From an uncultured Paracoccaceae bacterium (GTDB lineage Bacteria > Pseudomonadota > Alphaproteobacteria > Rhodobacterales > Rhodobacteraceae), in NCBI GenBank assembly GCA_937944395.1, contig CALDYW010000053.1, positions 1 through 35,263 of the forward strand: a stretch of DNA of 35,263 bases, given 5' to 3'. The position numbers and the translations under genes are program-made. Below, piece after piece: positions 21,417-32,478 of this stretch; position 1 is the stretch's first letter; every line of letters begins with the position of its first letter. A model generated the notes under the pieces. That model had not been told where the DNA came from. It saw nothing but the letters and a program-made list of their open reading frames with translations, and did no database searches.

Positions 21417-23315
21417 TTGGCACGAGGCGGGCCTCAGGTCGCGACAGGGTCCGGTCCGGCCGCCGCCCTGCGCGGCGGCGCGACCGCCGCTGTCGTCGCT
21501 CTGGGCACGCTGATGCTCTGGGCCGTGCTCCCGGCCGGTTTCGAGGGTCCGCTGATCCTGATGCTGGTCAGCATGGTCGCGGTCGTCGGGATCGGTATCT
21601 ACAGCGGCAACAGCGGCATCGTGAGCTTCGGGCATACCGCCCTCATGGCGCTCGGGGCCTATGCCTCGGCGATGATGACGATCGCGCCGGACGACAAGGC
21701 GCGGCTGCTGCCGGCGCTTCCCGATGCGGTGATCGCGCTGCATCTGCCGCCGGTTGCGGCGATCCTCGGGGCCTGCGCGGTCGTCGGGGTGGTGGCGCTG
21801 CCCGTGGCCCTGCTGATCGGGCGGCTCGAGGGCTCGTCGGCCTCGATCGCCACGCTCGGGCTTCTGCTCATCGTCAACGGCGTGCTGGTCGGCGCGCGCG
21901 ACTATACCCGCGGCAGTCAGGCGCTGTTCGGCCTGCCCATCGCCGTGACCGTGCCGGTGGCGGCGGCCTTCGTGGTGCTTGCGATCCTCGCCGCGCGGGC
22001 GTTCCGAGACTCGCGCATGGGGCTCGCGCTCAGGGCCGCGCGCGAGAACGCCGCCGCGGCCGCCGCCGTCGGGGCCGACGTGGTCCGCGCCCGGCAGGCG
22101 GCCTTCCTGCTCTCGGCCGTCATCGCCGCACTGGCCGGCGCGCTCTACGGCCATTTCATCGGCGTGCTCACCCCCCGGGCGTTCTATTTCGACCTGACCT
22201 TCGCGCTGCTCGCGATCCTGATCGTCGGCGGCATGACGACGATCGCGGGCGCGGCGCTCGGGGCGGTCCTGGTCTCGGTGCTGGTCGAGGTGCTGCGCCG
22301 CCTGGCCGACGGGGGCACCTTCGGTCCGCTGACGCTGCCGCCGGTTTACGGCCTGACCACGATCGGGCTGAGCCTCGCGATCCTCGCGGTGCTCTACCGC
22401 CGGCAGGGCGGGCTTCTGCCCTATGTCGAGCCCGACGAGGTGCTGCGCCCGCCCGCGCGCCCTGCCGTGCCGCCGCCCGCGCCGGCGCGGATCGAGGCCG
22501 GCTCGGGCGAGCTTCGTGCCGAGCGGCTCACCCGCCGCTTCGACGGAGTGATCGCGGTGTCCGAGGCGTCGCTGGTGCTGCGCCCCGGCGAGATCCTCGG
22601 TCTGATCGGGCCGAACGGGGCCGGCAAGTCCACGCTGCTGTCGATGATCGCGGGCTCGGTCCCGCCGACCTCGGGCCGCGTGCGGATCGACGGTGCCGAT
22701 GCAACCGGCCTGCCGCCGCACCGGATCGCGCGGCGCGGCGTGCAGCGGACCTTCCAGAACATCCGGCTGTTCGGCAACCTCAGCGTGCTCGACAACGTCC
22801 GGGTGGCCGCCGATGGCGGGCCCTGGAGCCGGGCCGAGGCGACGGCGCGGGCCTGGGCGCTGCTGGACCGGTTCGACCTGACGGCGCTTGCGGCGCGCCC
22901 CGCGGGCACGCTGGCCTACGGGCCGCAGCGGCGGGTCGAGATCGCGCGGGCGGTGGCGCGGGCGCCGCGCTACCTTCTGCTCGACGAGCCCGCGGCGGGC
23001 ATGAACGCGGCCGAATCCGATGCGCTGCTCGACCTGCTCGAGGGGCTGCGCCGCGACGACGGCATCGGCCTTCTGGTGATCGACCACGACCTGCGGCTGA
23101 TCCTCAGGCTCTGCGACCGGGTGGCGGTGCTCGGCAAGGGGCAGGTGATCGCCGAAGGACCGCCCGAGGCGGTCAGCCGGGATCCGCTGGTGATCGAGGC
23201 CTATCTCGGGCGGCGTCACGCCGGCGACGGACGAGGGCCGGCCCGGTCGGCCGCCACCTCCGGGGCACCGGGGCAGAAGACGACGGACCAGCACGAAAGG
23301 AGAAGGGATCCATGA
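21417..23315 (+). CDS. Branched-chain-amino-acid-type ABC transporter, fused permease (LivM) and ATPase (LivG)
   Basis: A 632-residue fusion. Residues ~20-330 are the LivM-type inner-membrane permease with about 8-10 hydrophobic segments and the family motif GNSGIVSFGHTALMALGAY. After a proline-rich linker (~345-362), residues ~365-605 are a LivG-type ATPase with Walker A GPNGAGKST (398-406), the LivG-specific RTFQNIRLFGNLSVLDNV, a signature of LAYGPQRRVEIARA in place of LSGGQ, and Walker B LLLDEP (Asp523, Glu524). The start is TTG with AAGGGGGGCAGGG upstream, the weakest start in the operon. The binding-protein start lies within its stop (ATGA). It imports an amino-acid-like or amide-like solute. 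Confidence 0.9.
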   Translation: MARGGPQVATGSGPAAALRGGATAAVVALGTLMLWAVLPAGFEGPLILMLVSMVAVVGIGIYSGNSGIVSFGHTALMALGAYASAMMTIAPDDKARLLPALPDAVIALHLPPVAAILGACAVVGVVALPVALLIGRLEGSSASIATLGLLLIVNGVLVGARDYTRGSQALFGLPIAVTVPVAAAFVVLAILAARAFRDSRMGLALRAARENAAAAAAVGADVVRARQAAFLLSAVIAALAGALYGHFIGVLTPRAFYFDLTFALLAILIVGGMTTIAGAALGAVLVSVLVEVLRRLADGGTFGPLTLPPVYGLTTIGLSLAILAVLYRRQGGLLPYVEPDEVLRPPARPAVPPPAPARIEAGSGELRAERLTRRFDGVIAVSEASLVLRPGEILGLIGPNGAGKSTLLSMIAGSVPPTSGRVRIDGADATGLPPHRIARRGVQRTFQNIRLFGNLSVLDNVRVAADGGPWSRAEATARAWALLDRFDLTALAARPAGTLAYGPQRRVEIARAVARAPRYLLLDEPAAGMNAAESDALLDLLEGLRRDDGIGLLVIDHDLRLILRLCDRVAVLGKGQVIAEGPPEAVSRDPLVIEAYLGRRHAGDGRGPARSAATSGAPGQKTTDQHERRRDP

Positions 23316-24481
23316 CGACGGCACTTCGGACGACGACGACGACCACGGCCGTGGCACTCGCCCTCGCGGCGGGGGCAGCCCAGGCGCAGGAGACGGTGAC
23401 GGTCGGCTTTGCCGCGGGCCTCACCGGCTATCTGGCCTTCTACGACGGCATGGTGATGCAGGGCGCCGAGATGGCGGTGGACGAGATCAACGCCGCCGGC
23501 GGGGTGCTCGACGGGCGGTACACCCTGGCCCTGTCGGTCAAGGACATGCGGTCGGAGACCCCGGCGGCGGTGATCGCCGCGCGCGATCTGGTCGCCGAAG
23601 GGGTGCGCGCGCTGCTGGTGCCCTGCGACGTCGATCCGGCGATCGCGGCGGGGCAGATCGGCCAGCAGGCCGGGATCCCGATGATCGCCGCCTGCGCCTC
23701 GACCCCGACGCTGCCGGGCCTGGTCGGCGACTACCTGTTCAACCTCAAGACCGCCGACAACCTGCAGGCGGCGGTGCTGGCGGAATACGCCCGCGCCCAG
23801 GGCTACGAGACCGCCTACATCCTGCTGTCGCCCGACACGCCCTATACCGACCTGTTGCCGCGCTACTTCGCGCAGGCCTTCGAGAGCCTCGGCGGCAGGG
23901 TGGCGGCGATCGACACCTACGCCTTCGACCAGCAGGACTTCAGCGTGGAAGCCACGCGCATCGCGGCGCTCGACCCGCAGCCCGACGTGATCATGACCGC
24001 CGCCTACGAGCCGCATTTTCCCGCCTTCATCCAGCAGCTGCGCAATGCCGGTGTCACCGCTCCGGTGCTGGGCAGCGACGGAATCGATTCGCCCACCACG
24101 CTCGGGATCGGGCCGGCGGCGGACGGGGTGGTGTTCTCGATGGCCGGCTTCCCGGTCGAGGGCGGAACGCTCGCCGCCTTCTACGACGCCTACGAGGCGC
24201 GCTACGGCGAGGATCTGCCCTTCGCCTTCAGCGCCACCGGCTACGAGGCGGTCAAGCTGCTCGCCGCGGCGATCGAGACGGCGGGCTCGATCGAGGGGGC
24301 CGCGATCCGCGACGCGCTCGATGCGGTCGTGGACTTTCCCGGCGTGACCGGCACGACGATCACCTATGCCGGGCAGAACCGCGTGGCGCTGCGCGACGTG
24401 ACCCTGGTCGAGGTGCGCGACGGCGAGCAGCACTTCGTGCTGCAGGCGCGGCCGGCACCCGAAACGACCCCGAAGCCCTGA
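23312..24481 (+). CDS. ABC transporter substrate-binding protein, branched-chain amino acid type
   Basis: A 389-residue periplasmic binding protein (peripla_BP_6 / LivJ type). The signal peptide is unusual: MTTALRTTTTTT followed by AVALALAAGAAQAQE, with likely cleavage after AQA. The mature protein opens TVTVGFAAGLTGYLAFYDG, then QGAEMAVDEINAAGGV, which is the family's diagnostic start. GAAAGGAGAAGGG precedes the ATG. It overlaps the permease-ATPase gene by 4 bp. The solute cannot be read from sequence; the neighbouring catabolic enzymes suggest a nitrogenous compound. Confidence 0.92.
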   Translation: MTTALRTTTTTTAVALALAAGAAQAQETVTVGFAAGLTGYLAFYDGMVMQGAEMAVDEINAAGGVLDGRYTLALSVKDMRSETPAAVIAARDLVAEGVRALLVPCDVDPAIAAGQIGQQAGIPMIAACASTPTLPGLVGDYLFNLKTADNLQAAVLAEYARAQGYETAYILLSPDTPYTDLLPRYFAQAFESLGGRVAAIDTYAFDQQDFSVEATRIAALDPQPDVIMTAAYEPHFPAFIQQLRNAGVTAPVLGSDGIDSPTTLGIGPAADGVVFSMAGFPVEGGTLAAFYDAYEARYGEDLPFAFSATGYEAVKLLAAAIETAGSIEGAAIRDALDAVVDFPGVTGTTITYAGQNRVALRDVTLVEVRDGEQHFVLQARPAPETTPKP

Positions 24482-24498
24482 CCGGAAGCGCCGGGGCG

Positions 24499-25212
24499 AT
24501 GCTCGAAGTGACGGGACTGGAGGTTGCCTACGGCGCGATCCGGGCCGTCAGGGGCATCGACCTTCGCGTGGGGCAGGGCGAGATCGTCGCCCTGCTCGGA
24601 CCCAACGGGGCGGGAAAGAGCTCGACGCTCATGGCGATCATGGGCGTCGTGCCGCCGCGGGCCGGGCGCATCCGCCTGGAGGGGCGCGATGTCTCGGGGC
24701 TGGCCCCCGAAGCCCTGGTCCGCGCGGGCATGGCGCTGGTGCCCGAGGGGCGGCGCATCTTCGCGCCGCTGACGGTGACCGAGAACCTGGTCGTCGCCGC
24801 GCCGCCCGGTCGCCGAAGGTCGGAACTTGCGGCGGACCTCGAAGAGATGCACGCGCTCTTCCCGGTGCTCGCCGAGCGGCGGACCCAGCAGGCGGGCACC
24901 CTCTCGGGCGGCGAGCAGCAGCAGCTTGCCATCGCGCGCTGCCTGATGGGCCGGCCGCGGATGGTGCTTCTCGACGAGCCCTCGCTGGGGCTCGCGCCGC
25001 AGATCGTGGACCAGATCTTCGACCTGATCGCCGGTCTGCGCGACCGCGGCCTGACGATCCTGCTGGTCGAGCAGAACGTGGACCTGTCGCTCGAGATCGC
25101 CGACCGCGGCTATGTGCTGGTCGGCGGCGAGATGGTGCTGGACGGCCCGGCCGCGGCGCTTGCCGCCTCGGAAGGGGTCGAGCGCGCCTTCCTCGGCCTG
25201 TCGGGGGCGTGA
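24499..25212 (+). CDS. livF: ABC transporter ATP-binding protein, LivF type
   Basis: A 237-residue ATPase, the second nucleotide-binding subunit of the transporter. Walker A GPNGAGKSS is at 34-42, the LivF-specific LVPEGRRIFAPLTVTENL follows, then the signature LSGGEQQQLAIARCL from 135 and Walker B LLDEPSLGLAP (Asp159, Glu160). The D-loop and H-loop region differs slightly: VEQNVDL replaces the H-loop His, as usual for LivF. It lies 17 bp after the binding-protein gene and 7 bp before the LivH gene. Confidence 0.93.
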   Translation: MLEVTGLEVAYGAIRAVRGIDLRVGQGEIVALLGPNGAGKSSTLMAIMGVVPPRAGRIRLEGRDVSGLAPEALVRAGMALVPEGRRIFAPLTVTENLVVAAPPGRRRSELAADLEEMHALFPVLAERRTQQAGTLSGGEQQQLAIARCLMGRPRMVLLDEPSLGLAPQIVDQIFDLIAGLRDRGLTILLVEQNVDLSLEIADRGYVLVGGEMVLDGPAAALAASEGVERAFLGLSGA

Positions 25213-25219
25213 GGCCGCC

Positions 25220-26104
25220 ATGGATCTTCTGTTCCAGAACCTCGTCAATGCGCTGAGCCTCGGCGGCATCTACGCGCTCCTCGCGCTGGGGCTTGCGCTC
25301 GTGTTCAGCATCATGGGGCTGATCAATTTCGCCCACGGCGAACTGATGACGATCACCGCCTACGGGCTGATCCTCGGCGCCGGGCTGGGCCTGCCCTTCG
25401 GGGCCGCCGTGATCCTGGGTGTGGCGCTGGCCGGTCTCGCCGCGATGGCGATGGAGCGCATCGCCTTCCGCCCCGTCCGCGGCGCCTCGGCGGCCACGCT
25501 CCTGCTGACGAGCTTTGCGGTCAGCGCGGTGCTGCAGGTGCTGTTCCAGAACCTGATCGCTGCCCGCCCTTTGCCGGTCGCGGTGCCGCGGGCGCTGGCC
25601 GGCACGCTCGACCTTGGCGGGTTGCGCGTGGGCGTGCTGCCGCTCGCGACGATCCTCGGCACGGGGATCCTGCTGGCCGCCCTGGCGCTGGTGCTGCGCC
25701 GCACCCGGGTCGGAATTGCCATGCGGGCCGCGGCCATCGACTTCCAGATGACCCGGCTGGTCGGCATCCGCGCCGATGCGGTGATCGCCGCGGCCTTCGG
25801 CCTGTCCGGACTCCTCGCCGGCATCGCGGCGGTGTTCTGGGTGGCGCAGCGGGGGTCGGTCGATCCGATGATGGGCTTCCTGCCGGTCCTGAAGGCCTTC
25901 ATCGCGGTGATCGTCGGCGGCCTCGGCAGCCTCTCCGGGGCGGTGGTGGGGGCGTTCCTGCTGGCCTTCATCGAGGTCGGCCTGCGGGCGCTCCTGCCGC
26001 CCGAACTGCTGCCCTACCGCGAGGCGCTGGCGCTGGCGCTGATCATCCTCGTGCTCCTGGTGCGGCCCCAGGGGCTGTTCGGGCGCAGGGAGACGGTGCG
26101 ATGA
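25220..26104 (+). CDS. livH: ABC transporter permease, LivH type
   Basis: A 294-residue inner-membrane permease with about eight hydrophobic segments. Diagnostic LivH motifs: LSLGGIYALLALGLALVFSI, GLINFAHGELM, the cytoplasmic coupling region RAAAIDFQMTRLVGI, and the closing VGGLGSLSGAVVGAFLLA. The ATG 7 bp after the LivF stop was chosen for its normal LivH start. The stop overlaps the start of the N-formylglutamate-amidohydrolase-like gene (ATGA), so import and that enzyme are co-translated. Confidence 0.93.
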   Translation: MDLLFQNLVNALSLGGIYALLALGLALVFSIMGLINFAHGELMTITAYGLILGAGLGLPFGAAVILGVALAGLAAMAMERIAFRPVRGASAATLLLTSFAVSAVLQVLFQNLIAARPLPVAVPRALAGTLDLGGLRVGVLPLATILGTGILLAALALVLRRTRVGIAMRAAAIDFQMTRLVGIRADAVIAAAFGLSGLLAGIAAVFWVAQRGSVDPMMGFLPVLKAFIAVIVGGLGSLSGAVVGAFLLAFIEVGLRALLPPELLPYREALALALIILVLLVRPQGLFGRRETVR

Positions 26105-26913
26105 GCCTGCTCGGCCCCTCGGATCCGCCGCCGGTCGAAGTCGCGAACGCGGCCGGCGCGGCGCCGCTGCTGATCGTCTGCGACCACGCGGCCAACCGCG
26201 TGCCCGCGGCTCTCGGGGATCTGGGCTTGCCGGCCGCGGCCCGTGCGGCGCACATCGCCTGGGATCCCGGGGCGGCGATGATCGCCCGCCACCTCAGCGC
26301 CCGGTTCGATGCCCCCGCGATCCTGTCGGGCTATTCCCGGCTGGTCGTCGATTGCAACCGCTATCCGCACGATCCCGCCAGCATGCCCGAGGTCAGCGAC
26401 GGCACGCCGGTTCCGGGCAACCGCGACCTCGAGCCGGCGGCGCGCGAGGCGCGGCTTGCCGCGCTGTTCCGACCCTATCACGCCGCCATCGCGGCGCGGC
26501 TGGACCGCTTCGCCGCGGCGCAGGTGGTGCCGGTGCTGCTGTCGGTGCACACGATGACCCCGCGCCTCGGCGGGCGCGACCGGCCCTGGCCGGTGGCGCT
26601 GTCCTGGCGGCTCGACGGCCGGCTGGCGCCGGCGCTGATCGCGGCGCTCCGCGCCGGCGGGATCGCCGCCGGCGACAACGAGCCCTACGGCCTCGATCCG
26701 GGCGAGGACTACACCGTGCCCGAACACGCCATGCGCCGGGGTCTTGCCCATGTGCAGGTCGAGTTCCGCCAGGATCTCGTGTCCGGCGCCGGCGGCGCCC
26801 GCGTCTGGGCCGACCGTTTCGCCGACGCGCTGGCGCCGCTGCTCGGCGATCCGCGGCTCCGCCGGCCCGAGCACCACTGGCCCGGAACCGGCGCTCAGCC
26901 GATCCCGGGATAG
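26101..26913 (+). CDS. N-formylglutamate amidohydrolase (FGase) family protein
   Basis: A 270-residue member of the FGase/HutG-like zinc hydrolase family, which removes formyl groups from N-formylglutamate and related N-acyl amino acids. Family blocks: IVCDHAANRVP near the N-terminus, HIAWDPGA, SGYSRLVVDCNRYPHDP, LLSVHTMTP, and a late LDPGEDYTVPEHAMRR followed by VQVEFRQDL. It is the last gene of the transporter operon, translationally coupled to livH, and its 3' end overlaps the convergent amidohydrolase gene by 19 bp. No hut genes are nearby, so histidine breakdown by the standard route is not supported here. N-formylaspartate is a plausible alternative. Confidence 0.85.
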   Translation: MSLLGPSDPPPVEVANAAGAAPLLIVCDHAANRVPAALGDLGLPAAARAAHIAWDPGAAMIARHLSARFDAPAILSGYSRLVVDCNRYPHDPASMPEVSDGTPVPGNRDLEPAAREARLAALFRPYHAAIAARLDRFAAAQVVPVLLSVHTMTPRLGGRDRPWPVALSWRLDGRLAPALIAALRAGGIAAGDNEPYGLDPGEDYTVPEHAMRRGLAHVQVEFRQDLVSGAGGARVWADRFADALAPLLGDPRLRRPEHHWPGTGAQPIPG

Positions 26914-28037
26914 ATCCGCCGCGCGTTGCCCTCGGCGAACAGCCGCACGATCTCGTCCGCGTCGGCGGCCGAGCAGAGCCCGTCGGCCAGCCAGCGGTCG
27001 ATCACCCGCCCGAGCGCGCGGCGGTAGAGGAAGGCGCCGAGGTAGTAGAGCTCGGCCAGCCCGAAGGCGTCCGACGAGAACAGGTACTTGGTGAATTTCC
27101 CCATCTCCAGCGCCTCGGCGAGGATGCCGTCGTAGTTGCCCGCCCCGTAGTTCAGCACCACCCCGGTGTCGTAGTAGACGTTCCGGAACACCTCGGACAT
27201 CCACTGCGCCTCGCGGATGAAGGGGTAGTTGTGCAGGAGCGTGACCGGCACCTCCCAGCCTTCCAGTGCGGCAATGAAGGGGGTGAAACGGGTGGGGTCG
27301 CAGGCGTGCATCAGGATGTCCGGGTCGCCGATCCCGACATGCACCTGCAGGGGCCAGCGCCGCTCGCGGCAGAGGTCGGCGCCGACCCAGAGGATGTGGC
27401 GCAGCAGCACCGGATCGGCGATGCGCCAGCGCCCGGCGGCCTCGGCCGCGCGGAACCAGCGGCCCGCCGCCTCGGCCACCTCGGCCTGCGCCGGCGCGGT
27501 CTGGTCGAAGGCGAAGGAGATGCGGTAGGCCACGATGGTCTTGAGCCCGACCGCCGCGGCCGAGACCTCGCGCAGGCGCGCTGCGAAGGCATCGGCGAAG
27601 GCCGCGGCCGCGACGCCCGAGCGCGCCACCTCCTCGGCCACCGCCTCGATCCGGACGACCTCGGAGGCCGGGCAGCCGGCGATCGCCGCCATCGCGGGCA
27701 CGCCGAGGATGATCTCGGCCCGGTGGCCGGTGTCGATGATCAGATGCCCGAAGCCGCCCGCCCGCATCAGGCGGCGGTTGACCTCCGCCGCGCCCAGTTC
27801 GCGCCGTCGCGCCATGTAGGCCGGGCCGGGCGCCCCCGGCTCGAGGTCGAGGAGCGGCGCGCAGAAGCGCCGGATCGCCAGCCCGAGCGGCTTCTGGAAC
27901 TCGTGCGTGCCCGCAGGCGGCGGGCGGTAGCTTTCCGAGAACAGCGCCTGGAAGGCGGTGTCGTCGAGGTCGCGGTCGCTGATCCCGTGGCAGTGATGGT
28001 CGATCAGCGGGATCGTCGCGATCAGCTCGGCGAGCAT
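26895..28037 (-). CDS. Amidohydrolase family protein (PF04909 type, FluG N-terminal-domain-like)
   Basis: A 380-residue TIM-barrel metal-dependent hydrolase. The metal motif HHCHG lies at 14-18 right after LIDH, followed by QVHVGIGDPDI, the second-shell LLHNYPFIREA and the metal-site Asp in FSSDAFGLAELYY. The ending RIYPG is typical of the FluG/nodulin-6-type amidohydrolases, which in fungi are fused to a glutamine-synthetase domain. Here the synthetase-like gene lies immediately upstream, with one base between its stop and this ATG. A Tyr-rich region YDTGVVLNYGAGNYDGI precedes the metal Asp. The substrate is unknown; hydrolysis of an amide made by the synthetase-like enzyme is an inference. 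Confidence 0.82.
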   Translation of the reverse strand: MLAELIATIPLIDHHCHGISDRDLDDTAFQALFSESYRPPPAGTHEFQKPLGLAIRRFCAPLLDLEPGAPGPAYMARRRELGAAEVNRRLMRAGGFGHLIIDTGHRAEIILGVPAMAAIAGCPASEVVRIEAVAEEVARSGVAAAAFADAFAARLREVSAAAVGLKTIVAYRISFAFDQTAPAQAEVAEAAGRWFRAAEAAGRWRIADPVLLRHILWVGADLCRERRWPLQVHVGIGDPDILMHACDPTRFTPFIAALEGWEVPVTLLHNYPFIREAQWMSEVFRNVYYDTGVVLNYGAGNYDGILAEALEMGKFTKYLFSSDAFGLAELYYLGAFLYRRALGRVIDRWLADGLCSAADADEIVRLFAEGNARRIYPGIG

Positions 28038-28038
28038 G

Positions 28039-29358
28039 TCAGTAGGCCTCGCGGTAGCGCGCGCAGACGGTGTCATCGTCGAGCCCTTCCATCATCCCGA
28101 TCTCCTTGCGCTTCACGGCGATCCAGGACTGGCGCATCACCGGCGGCAGGAAGCCCGCAACGGTCGCGTCGGCCTCCATCAGGGCGATCGCCTCGGCCAG
28201 CGACCCCGGCAGCGGCCGGATTCCCAGGCGCTCGCGTTCCGCCCCGGTCAGATCGGCCGGGTCGCGGTCGAGCGCGGGCGGCAGCGGCAGGCCCGCGCGC
28301 ACCCCCTCGAGCCCGGCGCGGATCAGCGCGCCGAGGGCGATGTACGGGTTCGCGGTGCCGTCGGGCACCCGCAGCTCGATGTTGTAGCCGGCGCGCCGGC
28401 GTTCGGGATCGGCATGCGGCGAAGGGCAGATGCGCAGCGCCGCCTCGCGGTTCTGCACCCCGAAGGCGGCATAGCCGCAGGACCAGTGATGCGGACCGAG
28501 GCGGAAGTAGGATACCGGCGAGGGCGCGAAGAGCGCGCAGAGGCCGGGCAGGTGGCGCAGCACGCCGGCGCAGAAGGCGGCGGCGACCGCCGAGGCGCCG
28601 GCCGGCGCCGCGGCGTCGTAGGCGGCATTGCGCCCGGCGTCGTCCAGCAGGCTGAAGTGCACATGCGCCCCGGCCCCCACCGCCCCCGGCGCGGGTTTCG
28701 GGGTGAACGAGGCGCACAGGCCCGCCCGCCGCGCCGCCTCGCGGATCACCTCGCGGGTCAGCACGGCGCGGTCTGCGGCCATGAGCCCGGCCGCCGGGGC
28801 GGTGGAGACCTCGTACTGGCCGCGGCCGTATTCGGGCTCGACCGTTTCGGGTTCGACGCCGGCTTCGGTCAGCGCGCGGGCGATCATGCCGGCGACGCCG
28901 GCAGCCTCGCGCATCGCGGCGAGCGAGAAGGGCGTCTCGCGCGGTGCGCCCGGCCCGGTCAGCAGGAACTCGTGCTCGAAGGCGGCGGCAAAGCCGAGCC
29001 CGGTTTCCGCCCGGAGCCGGTCCAGCGCGTCGCGGAGGAAGCGGCGTCCGCAGCACTCCCAGCCCTGCCCGTCGGCGGTGTTGGACTCGCACAGCACGAT
29101 GTGGAACGGCGGCACGCCGGGCCAGAGGTCGAGCCGCACCTCGGTTTCGGGCGCCGGGGTCTGGCGGACCTCCAGCATCGGGCCCCACGGATTGTCGGCG
29201 ATGTCGTCGAAGGGGGTCAACGCCTGGCCGGCGACCGCCCAGCCCAGGCCGCGCTCGCGCCGGGCGGCATACTGGTGGGCGGGGACCGCGCGGCAGCGCG
29301 TCACGCCCACGTAATCGGACCAGCACAGGTGGATGATCTCGTCCGCCGCCGTCGTCAT
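28039..29358 (-). CDS. Glutamine-synthetase-like protein (type I fold; probable gamma-glutamylamide or amine ligase)
   Basis: A 439-residue GS-I-fold enzyme. Catalytic residues are kept: AFEHEF (Glu128, Glu130), RGQYEVS (Glu183), GAGAHVHFSL (His232), NREAALRI, and IELRVPDGTANPY. The N-terminal beta-grasp domain is shortened and lacks the usual DGSS ammonia-site motif, so a glutamylation of an amine, as in PuuA- or GMAS-type enzymes, is more likely than ammonia assimilation. The ATG at 29358 follows the rpiR stop by 4 bases; the family start MTTAADEIIHLCWSDY fits. It is the middle gene of rpiR - synthetase - amidohydrolase. With the amidohydrolase it reconstructs the two halves of FluG. Confidence 0.85.
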   Translation of the reverse strand: MTTAADEIIHLCWSDYVGVTRCRAVPAHQYAARRERGLGWAVAGQALTPFDDIADNPWGPMLEVRQTPAPETEVRLDLWPGVPPFHIVLCESNTADGQGWECCGRRFLRDALDRLRAETGLGFAAAFEHEFLLTGPGAPRETPFSLAAMREAAGVAGMIARALTEAGVEPETVEPEYGRGQYEVSTAPAAGLMAADRAVLTREVIREAARRAGLCASFTPKPAPGAVGAGAHVHFSLLDDAGRNAAYDAAAPAGASAVAAAFCAGVLRHLPGLCALFAPSPVSYFRLGPHHWSCGYAAFGVQNREAALRICPSPHADPERRRAGYNIELRVPDGTANPYIALGALIRAGLEGVRAGLPLPPALDRDPADLTGAERERLGIRPLPGSLAEAIALMEADATVAGFLPPVMRQSWIAVKRKEIGMMEGLDDDTVCARYREAY

Positions 29359-29362
29359 GCCC

Positions 29363-30268
29363 TCATGACCCTTCCCCCTTGCCTCCGCAGGCCGCCGGGC
29401 GCCCGCCGGTCCATTCGTAGCCCGCGCGCAGTTCCTCGACCTTGCGCATGCGGGCAAGCCCCGCCTCGCCCAGCCGCGCGGCGACCCCCGCGATCAGCGC
29501 CTCGCAGAGCGCCGTCATCGGCACCAGCGAATCGAAGGCCGAGGGCGAGCGCACCTCGGCGGTCAGCACGATCCGCGCGCAATCGGCGATCGGCGACAGC
29601 CAGGGATCGGTGCACAGGATGATCGTCGCGCCGCGCCGGCGGGCCATCTCGGCGATGCGCACGGTGCGCGCCTCGTATCGGCGCACGTCGAACAGCACGA
29701 CGACGCTGCGGCGCGTGATGTCCACGATCCGGTCCTCGCGCGGCTGCAGGTCGCCGCGCAGGCGGCCGACCCGGTCCCGCAGCAGGAACAGGTGCAGGAA
29801 CAGCATGTCGGCGATCAGCCGCGTGAACCGCCCGCCGTCGGTCACCACGGGCCGCGCCGGGTCGGCCAGAAGTTCGACCGCGGCCTCGAAATCCGCGCCG
29901 GACAGGCGCGCGAAGCTGTCGTCGAGCGCGGCGGCGAAGGTGGTGCGGCAGTGGTCCAGAAGCGCGCTGTCCGAGGGCGGGCGGCCGCTGTCGTAGAGCG
30001 TCAGCGGCGAGGAATGGCGGGCCTCCAGCTCCTGGCGGATCGCGCGCTGGAACTCGGGGTAGCTCGTGAAGCCGAGCTTGCCGACCAGCCGCAGCACGGT
30101 CGGCCCCGAGACTCCGGCCCGCCCGGCGAGGTTCGCAACCGTATCGAGCCCGGCGAGCATTCCGGTCCGGGTGAGAAGCCGAGCAACCCGTGCCTCGGCC
30201 GCGGCCAGCCCCACCGTCGCCTGGCGAAGCCGGTCGGTCAGCGTGGCGTCGAGGGTGGACTGCGGCAC
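29363..30268 (-). CDS. MurR/RpiR family transcriptional regulator
   Basis: A 301-residue regulator. The N-terminal HTH_6 domain contains TVANLAGRAGVSGPTVLRLVGKLGF with the recognition helix typical of RpiR. The rest is a SIS (sugar isomerase) domain: TDGGRFTRLIADMLFLHL, then VVLFDVRRYEARTVRIAEMA and TIILCTDPWLSPIA. RpiR proteins usually sense phosphorylated sugars, but those next to amine-catabolic genes exist. GTG start with GGAG 6 bases upstream. First gene of the leftward operon, divergent from the flavoprotein gene at 30406. Confidence 0.9.
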   Translation of the reverse strand: MPQSTLDATLTDRLRQATVGLAAAEARVARLLTRTGMLAGLDTVANLAGRAGVSGPTVLRLVGKLGFTSYPEFQRAIRQELEARHSSPLTLYDSGRPPSDSALLDHCRTTFAAALDDSFARLSGADFEAAVELLADPARPVVTDGGRFTRLIADMLFLHLFLLRDRVGRLRGDLQPREDRIVDITRRSVVVLFDVRRYEARTVRIAEMARRRGATIILCTDPWLSPIADCARIVLTAEVRSPSAFDSLVPMTALCEALIAGVAARLGEAGLARMRKVEELRAGYEWTGGRPAACGGKGEGS

Positions 30269-30405: not shown

Positions 30406-32478
30406 ATGACCCGCGATCCCCGCCACGACATCCTGTTCGAGCCGGTGCGGATCGGTCCGAGGGTGGCGCGCAACCGCTTCTACCAGGTTCCGCACTGCAA
30501 CGGGCTCGGCCATCGCGCACCGCGGGCGCTGGCCGCCATGCGCGCGGCGAAGGCCGAGGGCGGCTGGGCCGTGGTCTGCACCGAGGAGGTCGAGGTCCAC
30601 CCCGCCGCCGAGGTCTCGCCCAGCATCGAGGGCCGGATCTGGAGCGATGCCGACATCCCCGCGCACGAAGGCATGGTGCAGGCGGTGCAGGCGCATGGCG
30701 CGCTGGCCGGGATCGAGCTGGTCTTTCCCACCCCGCGCGCCAACCACGATTCGCGGCTGGTGCCGATGGGCGTGCGGGCCGGCCCGGTGGGCTCGGGCGG
30801 GATCGACCCCTGGCAGGCGCGCGCGATGGATGCGGACGACCTGCGCGATGTCCGCCGCTGGCATCGCGCCGCGGTCGGCCGGGCGATCCGGGCGGGCTAT
30901 GACCTGGTCTATGTCTATGCCGGGCACGGGCTGTCGCTGCTGCAGCAGTTCCTGTCGCGCGCCACCAACGACCGCAGCGACGCCTACGGCGGCTCGCTTG
31001 CGAACCGGTCGCGGCTGTTGCGCGAGATCCTGTCCGAGACGCTCGAGGAGGCGGCGGGCCGGGTTGCCGTGGCTGTCCGGATCGCGATGGCCGAGCCCGA
31101 CATCGACGACGGGCTGACGCGCGAGGAGATCGCCGAGGTCGTCGGCATGGTGGCCGAGGCGCCCGACCTCTGGGACTTCTGCATGGGCAGCTGGGAACGC
31201 GACTCGCCCACCGCCCGGCTGGCGCCCGAGGGCTTCCAGGAGGCGGCGATCCGCGGGCTGAAGGCCCTGACCACAAAACCGGTGGTGGGGGTCGGCCGCT
31301 TCACCTCGCCCGACACCATGGCCGCGCAGGTGCGCGGCGGGCTGATGGATTTCGTCGGCGCAGCGCGGCCGTCGATCGCCGACCCGTTCCTGCCGCGCAA
31401 GATCGAGGCGGGCGAGGCCGACCGCATCCGCGAATGCATCGGCTGCAACATCTGCGTCGCCAGCGACAACCTCGCCGCCCCGATCCGCTGCACCCAGAAC
31501 CCGACGATGGGCGAGGAATGGCGCCGCCGCTGGCACCCCGAGCGGATCGCGCCCCGGGGCAGCGCTGCGCGGGTGCTGGTGGTGGGCGGCGGGCCGGCGG
31601 GGCTCGAGGCGGCGCGCGCGCTCGGCGCGCGGGGGTACGAGGTGGCGCTGGCCGAGGCCGGGGCGCGGCCGGGCGGGCGGGCGGTGCGCGAGGCGCGGCT
31701 GCCGGGCCTGTCCACCTGGGCCCGCGTCGCCGACTGGCGGCTGGGCGAGATCGCCCGGATGGGCCATGTCGCGGTGTTTCCGGGCAGCCCGATGACCGCC
31801 GCCGACGTGCTGGACTTCGGGGCGGCGCATGTGGTCGTGGCCACCGGCGCCCGCTGGCGCCGCGACGGACGCGGGCGGCGCCACCCCCGGGGCATCGCCG
31901 TCGCCGAAGGCGCGAGCGTGCTGACGCCCGACGACCTGCTCGACGGTGCGGCGCCCGGGGGCAGCGTGCTGATCTACGACGACGAGCACTACGTCATGGG
32001 CAGCGCGCTGGCCGAGCTCCTGGCCGGGCAGGGGGCGGCGGTGACGCTCGTCACCCCCGCCCCTCTCGTCGCGGCCTGGACCGTGCACACCCTGGAGCAG
32101 GCCGCGGTCGAGCGGCGGCTGGTCGGCCTCGGCGTGCGGCTGCGGACGCGCACGGCTCTCGTGCGGATCGACCCCGGTGCGGCGATCCTGCGCGACGAGG
32201 TGACCGGTGCGGCCGACAGCCTGCCCGCCGATGCCGTGGTCGCGGTGACGGCCCGCGCGCCCTGCGACGGACTGGCGGCCGAGCTGCAGGCGCGGCGGGG
32301 GGAATGGGCGGATCACGGAGTGGCCGGCGTCACCGTGATCGGCGACGCGCTGGCGCCCGGGACGATCGCGCACGCGGTCTTCGCCGGCCACCTCTACGCC
32401 CGCAACCTCGACACAGGCGCCGGCGCCGACGACCTGCCCTTCCGCCGCGAACTGCCCTTCCCCGGTGAAGCGGGATGA
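30406..32478 (+). CDS. Trimethylamine dehydrogenase / histamine dehydrogenase-family iron-sulfur flavoprotein
   Basis: A 690-residue amine-dehydrogenase-type flavoprotein. From recall of the trimethylamine dehydrogenase (TMADH) sequence it aligns over most of its length. It keeps YQVPHC (Cys31, the 6-S-cysteinyl-FMN attachment), the catalytic Tyr171/His174 (YAGH), the FMN barrel, the 4Fe-4S cysteines Cys344, Cys347, Cys350 and Cys362, and the ADP-binding GGGPAG at 394-399. The substrate bowl differs: TMADH Tyr60 and Trp355 correspond to Glu61 and Asp354 here, while the third aromatic appears kept as Trp256. Histamine dehydrogenase also has an Asp at the Trp355 position, as I recall. Electron-transfer flavoprotein is the likely acceptor but is not encoded here. 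Dimethylglycine- or stachydrine-demethylase-like substrates remain possible. Confidence 0.85.
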   Translation: MTRDPRHDILFEPVRIGPRVARNRFYQVPHCNGLGHRAPRALAAMRAAKAEGGWAVVCTEEVEVHPAAEVSPSIEGRIWSDADIPAHEGMVQAVQAHGALAGIELVFPTPRANHDSRLVPMGVRAGPVGSGGIDPWQARAMDADDLRDVRRWHRAAVGRAIRAGYDLVYVYAGHGLSLLQQFLSRATNDRSDAYGGSLANRSRLLREILSETLEEAAGRVAVAVRIAMAEPDIDDGLTREEIAEVVGMVAEAPDLWDFCMGSWERDSPTARLAPEGFQEAAIRGLKALTTKPVVGVGRFTSPDTMAAQVRGGLMDFVGAARPSIADPFLPRKIEAGEADRIRECIGCNICVASDNLAAPIRCTQNPTMGEEWRRRWHPERIAPRGSAARVLVVGGGPAGLEAARALGARGYEVALAEAGARPGGRAVREARLPGLSTWARVADWRLGEIARMGHVAVFPGSPMTAADVLDFGAAHVVVATGARWRRDGRGRRHPRGIAVAEGASVLTPDDLLDGAAPGGSVLIYDDEHYVMGSALAELLAGQGAAVTLVTPAPLVAAWTVHTLEQAAVERRLVGLGVRLRTRTALVRIDPGAAILRDEVTGAADSLPADAVVAVTARAPCDGLAAELQARRGEWADHGVAGVTVIGDALAPGTIAHAVFAGHLYARNLDTGAGADDLPFRRELPFPGEAG

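Follow-up and report, generated by a model that had tools for sequence, protein, structure and literature searches.

Trimethylamine dehydrogenase (TMADH) and histamine dehydrogenase (HADH, EC 1.4.9.1) oxidise an amine at a 6-S-cysteinyl FMN; the resulting imine is hydrolysed and the electrons are transferred singly, via a 4Fe-4S cluster, to electron-transfer flavoprotein (ETF). In the HADH of Nocardioides (Pimelobacter) simplex, histamine is contacted by Gln65, Ile74, Phe77, Glu79, Asn115, Tyr181, Trp267 and Asp358 (PMC10180351). In a saturation mutagenesis of the Rhizobium HADH, clones substituted at Gln60 or Ile69 were far less active, and none substituted at Tyr171, Phe176, Trp263, Asp265 or Asp354 was active; changes at Phe72 and Asn110 were tolerated, with a wide range of activity, and Phe72Thr raised both Vmax and Km (PMC10180351).

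The window, by which we mean the whole stretch of 35,263 nucleotides that was analysed, contains a real and complete gene for a histamine/trimethylamine-dehydrogenase-family flavoprotein (P0001; bp 30406-32478, plus strand), whose open reading frame encodes 690 amino acids without a stop. The Pfam profiles Oxidored_FMN (residues 10-338) and Pyr_redox_2 (residues 389-648) both match P0001 above their cut-offs. Its best matches among PDB sequences were 3k30 (783 bits), 6de6 (734), 6l6j (600) and 1djn (453). An AlphaFold2 model (mean pLDDT 89.3), which was used for the fold only, had 3k30 as its best match in Foldseek (TM 0.96, 1.5 A rmsd); 6l6j is named there as the 6-hydroxypseudooxynicotine amine oxidase HisD. 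The FMN-linking cysteine, the Tyr/His/Asp triad, the four 4Fe-4S cysteines and the two-domain fold are all present, and sequence comparison places P0001 in the TMADH/HADH family, with the HADHs as nearest characterised relatives.

Phmmer and MAFFT alignments matched Cys31 (30496-30498), the expected attachment site of the 6-S-cysteinyl FMN, to TMADH Cys30. In the catalytic triad, Tyr171 and His174 (30916-30927) correspond to TMADH Tyr169 and His172, and the retained bowl residue Trp263 and third triad residue Asp266 (31192-31203) to TMADH Trp264 and Asp267. Cysteines 344, 347, 350 and 362, which bind the 4Fe-4S cluster and have Asp354 between them (31435-31491), correspond to TMADH Cys345, 348, 351 and 364 (all plus strand). 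The cofactor and catalytic residues of P0001 are intact, as an earlier note made from the DNA alone had claimed for Cys31, Tyr171/His174 and the four cysteines, and the TMADH-family assignment in that note agrees with the Pfam domains, the phmmer/PDB matches and the fold. The source genome carries ETF alpha and beta genes, which is consistent with ETF as the electron acceptor of P0001.

The aromatic bowl of TMADH, Tyr60/Trp264/Trp355, reads Glu61/Trp263/Asp354 in P0001. The replacement of two of the three bowl aromatics, Tyr60 by Glu61 and Trp355 by Asp354, had been proposed in the earlier note and is borne out by the alignments, which have Glu and Asp at both positions where an aromatic would speak against the histamine-like reading given there. 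Its statement that histamine dehydrogenase has Gln and Asp at these positions was also correct (alignment; PMC10180351). The third bowl residue had been sought at position 256; it is Trp263, matching TMADH Trp264, so that both enzymes have Trp. Asp354 corresponds unambiguously to HADH Asp358 and, by phmmer, to TMADH Trp355; in the MAFFT alignment Trp355 lies in a gap beside it.

Only three of the eight histamine contacts are identical in P0001 (Glu75, Trp263 and Asp354). One change is conservative: Val70 (30613-30615) for HADH Ile74. The other four are Glu61 (30586-30588), aligned by phmmer and MAFFT with N. simplex HADH Gln65 and TMADH Tyr60; Ser73 (30622-30624) for HADH Phe77, which is Phe72 in the Rhizobium HADH; Arg111 (30736-30738) for HADH Asn115, Rhizobium HADH Asn110; and Leu176 (30931-30933) for Tyr181 of N. 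simplex and Phe176 of Rhizobium (all plus strand). Beside Arg111 the alignment has a deletion of one residue, but the match of Arg111 is supported by a relative from an uncultured Rhizobium sp. MAG (L009, 63% identity to P0001), which retains the NG anchor directly before its Pro-Arg. Because of this deletion, the moderate confidence of the Arg111 loop and a pLDDT below 50 at residues 351-355, the modelled orientation of Arg111 and Asp354 is tentative. P0001 combines an ordinary family architecture with an uncommon pocket.

These residues bear on the possibility that P0001 is a histamine or agmatine dehydrogenase, in which Glu61 and Asp354 would bind an imidazole or dicationic amine, with the remaining changes only tuning affinity. 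Glu75, Trp263 and Asp354 are retained, and Phe72 and Asn110 variants of the Rhizobium HADH remain active; Glu61, Val70 and Leu176, however, occupy positions at which substitutions leave histamine activity weak or absent. With Glu, Val and Leu at the equivalents of Gln60, Ile69 and Phe176, P0001 is expected to have poor histamine activity.

Gene calls around family members revealed a recurrent neighbour set, consisting of a TIGR04046 flavin-dependent oxidoreductase, RidA, DUF1028, an ArgE-like deacylase, a PuuC-like aldehyde dehydrogenase and a LysR regulator. Called as at least two of TIGR04046, RidA, DUF1028 and ArgE-like within 9 kb, the set was found at 24 of the 87 members whose flanks reach 7 kb or more (L054, L062, L066, L153, L044, L028 and 18 others). 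L028 and L054, the closest relatives of the two characterised HADHs, belong to this group. All 24 operon-linked members have Gln61, Ile70, Phe73, Glu75, Asn111, Trp263 and Asp354, so that seven of the eight histamine contacts are invariant; at the eighth, position 176, five of the 24 have Leu, a point against the reading of P0001 that we prefer below. The set occurred at 24 of the 30 members of the Gln61/Phe73/Asn111 group versus no Glu61 member. When the tree was considered, this association comprised only 3 independent pairs and was not significant alone; we regard it as suggestive. The histamine route of P. putida includes an aldehyde dehydrogenase, an FAD monooxygenase (EC 1.14.13.5) and amidases (PMC6467879), and by analogy the conserved set may be read as a candidate histamine-type catabolic operon. 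In Xanthobacter agilis, the same operon region holds two HADH homologues 6 kb apart (L054:10001-12052 and L054:16420-18477), one of which is the nearest to the Rhizobium HADH.

A scan blind to the pocket was used to find group-specific positions, defined as those at which the operon group does not vary and its residue is found in fewer than 40% of the other members. It returned 8 of the 690 positions (38, 61, 70, 73, 74, 111, 284 and 437). Four of these (61, 70, 73 and 111) are published histamine contacts (hypergeometric p=5.1e-7; no higher than 2.4e-5 whichever threshold was applied), and this enrichment supports the operon group as histamine-type. P0001 departs from the group at all four contacts, with Glu, Val, Ser and Arg, and none of the operon set (FMO, RidA, DUF1028, ArgE-like) was found near it; both results argue against histamine or agmatine as its substrate. 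Since these four are the pocket positions that distinguish the histamine-type relatives, P0001 probably oxidises another amine.

In the family sample, which was collected by similarity to P0001 and whose frequencies are therefore biased, the Glu61/Asp354 pair was present in 67 of 129 relatives and Gln/Asp in 48; after more loci had been added, Glu/Asp was the commonest pair (77 of 157; Gln/Asp 64 of 157). Among the matches listed, it is spread over Proteobacteria, Actinomycetota and Chloroflexota. Being so common in the sampled family, the pair is not the unusual feature of P0001 and no sign of a special enzyme. Ser73 together with Arg111 was found only in P0001 and L009 among the 157 members, and L009 has the same residues as P0001 at positions 61, 70, 73 and 111. 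Within strict limits, the matches listed from 390 genomes in the order and 398 in the phylum included no further member of this type, though others may exist. Small subgroups (L181, L182, L099 and L100) have other bowls, His61/His354 and Ala61/Trp354, and point to further uncharacterised pockets within the TMADH/HADH family.

In a tree of 129 sequences, P0001 and L009 paired with full support in a clade of 56 rows that also contained both HADHs (SH-aLRT 93). In a rooted tree of 29 sequences the clade holding both HADHs was the sister group of the pair (bootstrap 87, SH-aLRT 97), a kinship that could be read in favour of histamine or agmatine as the substrate. Placement of P0001 within the N-methylproline/stachydrine demethylase clade was rejected (AU p=0.0004) in a tree in which this clade was represented by HpbA sequences from annotated Paracoccus plasmids. 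The earlier note had named a place in the dimethylglycine/stachydrine demethylase clade as grounds for abandoning its histamine-like claim; neither this nor its other ground, aromatics at positions 61 and 354, was observed. The possibility of a 6-hydroxypseudooxynicotine oxidase was likewise rejected: HisD and NdpC form a separate 100/100 clade, and P0001 has Cys31 and Asp354.

The source genome (2.48 Mb, 72% complete) contains four HADH-like genes, of which P0001 is the divergent paralogue. Paralogue L002 (G000:C220) has a complete histamine-type pocket. Its neighbours, labelled by inspection of their sequences rather than by profile, are a nitrilase-like gene and an ABC transporter of polyamine type; the operon set was not detected next to L002, and DUF1028 was absent from the source genome at its 72% completeness. 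The C21 paralogue is cut off at a contig end and has as neighbours an amine-oxidase-like gene and a permease of polyamine type (again read from the sequences, not from profiles). In paralogue L003 (G000:C46:37-2094), an in-frame TAG stands in place of the invariant Trp256 codon; either the gene is a pseudogene or the assembly is in error. The intact-pocket paralogue in the same genome counts further against P0001 as a histamine or agmatine dehydrogenase. We consider that identity improbable, and histamine an unlikely substrate. That P0001 is itself a decaying, inactive paralogue, as the four HADH-like genes and the interrupted C46 copy might suggest, is very hard to reconcile with its fully open frame and the retention of every invariant catalytic and cofactor residue, and we give it almost no credence.

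Upstream, an RpiR-family regulator (29363-30268, minus strand) is divergent from P0001 across 137 bp. It is followed by the adjacent, overlapping genes of a GS-like protein (28039-29457) and an Amidohydro_2 protein (26895-28076), both on the minus strand; the same two domains are fused in fungal FluG. The other neighbours are an N-formylglutamate-amidohydrolase-like protein (FGase) and a branched-chain-type (Liv) ABC transporter, the permease and ATPase of which are fused in one protein of 632 aa (BPD_transp_2 + ABC_tran; 21417-23315, plus strand). Downstream, convergent DUF1501 and DUF1800 genes give no clue to the substrate.

The GS-like protein could be a metabolic partner that ligates glutamate to an amine, with P0001 oxidising the gamma-glutamyl amine, Arg111 binding the carboxylate and the RpiR regulator controlling both. 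The close divergent regulator would fit this arrangement, as would the best NCBIfam model of the GS-like protein, gamma-glutamylputrescine synthetase (below cut-off), and Arg111 could bind a carboxylate. Four other genomes, however, carry the GS/RpiR/transporter/FGase block but no dehydrogenase beside it, and the block is missing at relatives of P0001; the nearest of these, L009, is flanked by RTX/serralysin-like proteins, a phosphoribosyltransferase and a flavodoxin, which are uninformative on substrate. The adjacency of block and dehydrogenase is weak evidence on the substrate. The GS/amidohydrolase/FGase/Liv cluster was dropped as a clue, as a separate conserved unit, and we think a partnership with P0001 quite unlikely. 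The block (window 21417-30268) recurs at L139, L140, L142 and L143, where it is often accompanied by an isochorismatase-like hydrolase and a class III aminotransferase. We make no case for an operator common to the RpiR intergenic regions, as the sole word that they have in common, TGTCAA(A), is the complement of a -35 hexamer.

The reading that we prefer, with reasonable though limited confidence, is that P0001 is an active TMADH/HADH-family member whose most likely substrate is not histamine but another cationic amine, possibly a zwitterionic one. We infer its covalent flavin, reaction, electron acceptor and substrate class as follows. The amine would be bound above the FMN linked to Cys31, near the Tyr171/His174/Asp266 triad, and would be oxidised to an imine that is hydrolysed to an aldehyde and an amine or ammonia, the electrons passing singly via the 4Fe-4S cluster, probably to ETF. 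Three acids, Glu61, Glu75 and Asp354, would favour a cationic amine, Ser73 would open the wall closed by Phe in histamine dehydrogenases, and an anionic group of the substrate may pair with Arg111. Only tentatively do we suggest that P0001 and L009 represent a new specificity, for a zwitterionic cationic substrate (amino-acid-like or a gamma-glutamyl amine) held by Glu61, Glu75 and Asp354 at its amine and by Arg111 at its anionic group. The term histamine-like in the earlier note holds for kinship, the HADHs being nearest and their clade sister to P0001, but only weakly for substrate, in view of the four changed group-specific contacts and the paralogue with an intact pocket. The positive charge that it proposed for the amine is reasonable, but a primary or imidazole-type amine is not supported.

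About half of the sampled family has Glu61/Asp354, and in agreement with the earlier note no characterised enzyme with this pair was found; HisD and NdpC of the nicotine pathway have Glu/Val. Annotation by similarity as histamine or trimethylamine dehydrogenase would therefore often be unsafe. Positions 61, 70, 73 and 111 offer a simple four-residue test for operon-linked, histamine-type members, and P0001 and L002, a paralogue pair in one genome, would allow a direct comparison of what these positions do.

Among the described enzymes, the N. simplex (Pimelobacter) HADH (3k30) has the same fold as P0001 and 55% identity in the family alignment; the two have the flavin-linking Cys, the triad, the 4Fe-4S cysteines and Glu75/Trp263/Asp354 in common, and differ at Glu61/Gln65, Val70/Ile74, Ser73/Phe77, Arg111/Asn115 and Leu176/Tyr181. 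The Rhizobium sp. 4-9 HADH (6de6, 50% identity), whose nearest relative L054 sits in the conserved operon, shares the cofactor residues and Asp354 with P0001, which differs from it at positions 61, 70, 73 and 111 and has Leu176 for Phe176. HisD (6l6j) and NdpC (Shinella sp. HZN7) are 45-48% identical to P0001 and have Glu61 and Leu176 in common with it, but they have Ala instead of the FMN-linking Cys, Val at 354 and a clade of their own. With Methylophilus TMADH (1djn, 39% identity) P0001 shares the cofactors, the triad and Trp263, whereas Tyr60/Trp355 of TMADH are replaced by Glu61/Asp354. The N-methyl-L-proline demethylase HpbA (StcD-like) has the superfamily domains of P0001 but only 26% identity to it, belongs to a separate clade and carries CVGANYCL instead of the cysteine motif CIGCNIC.
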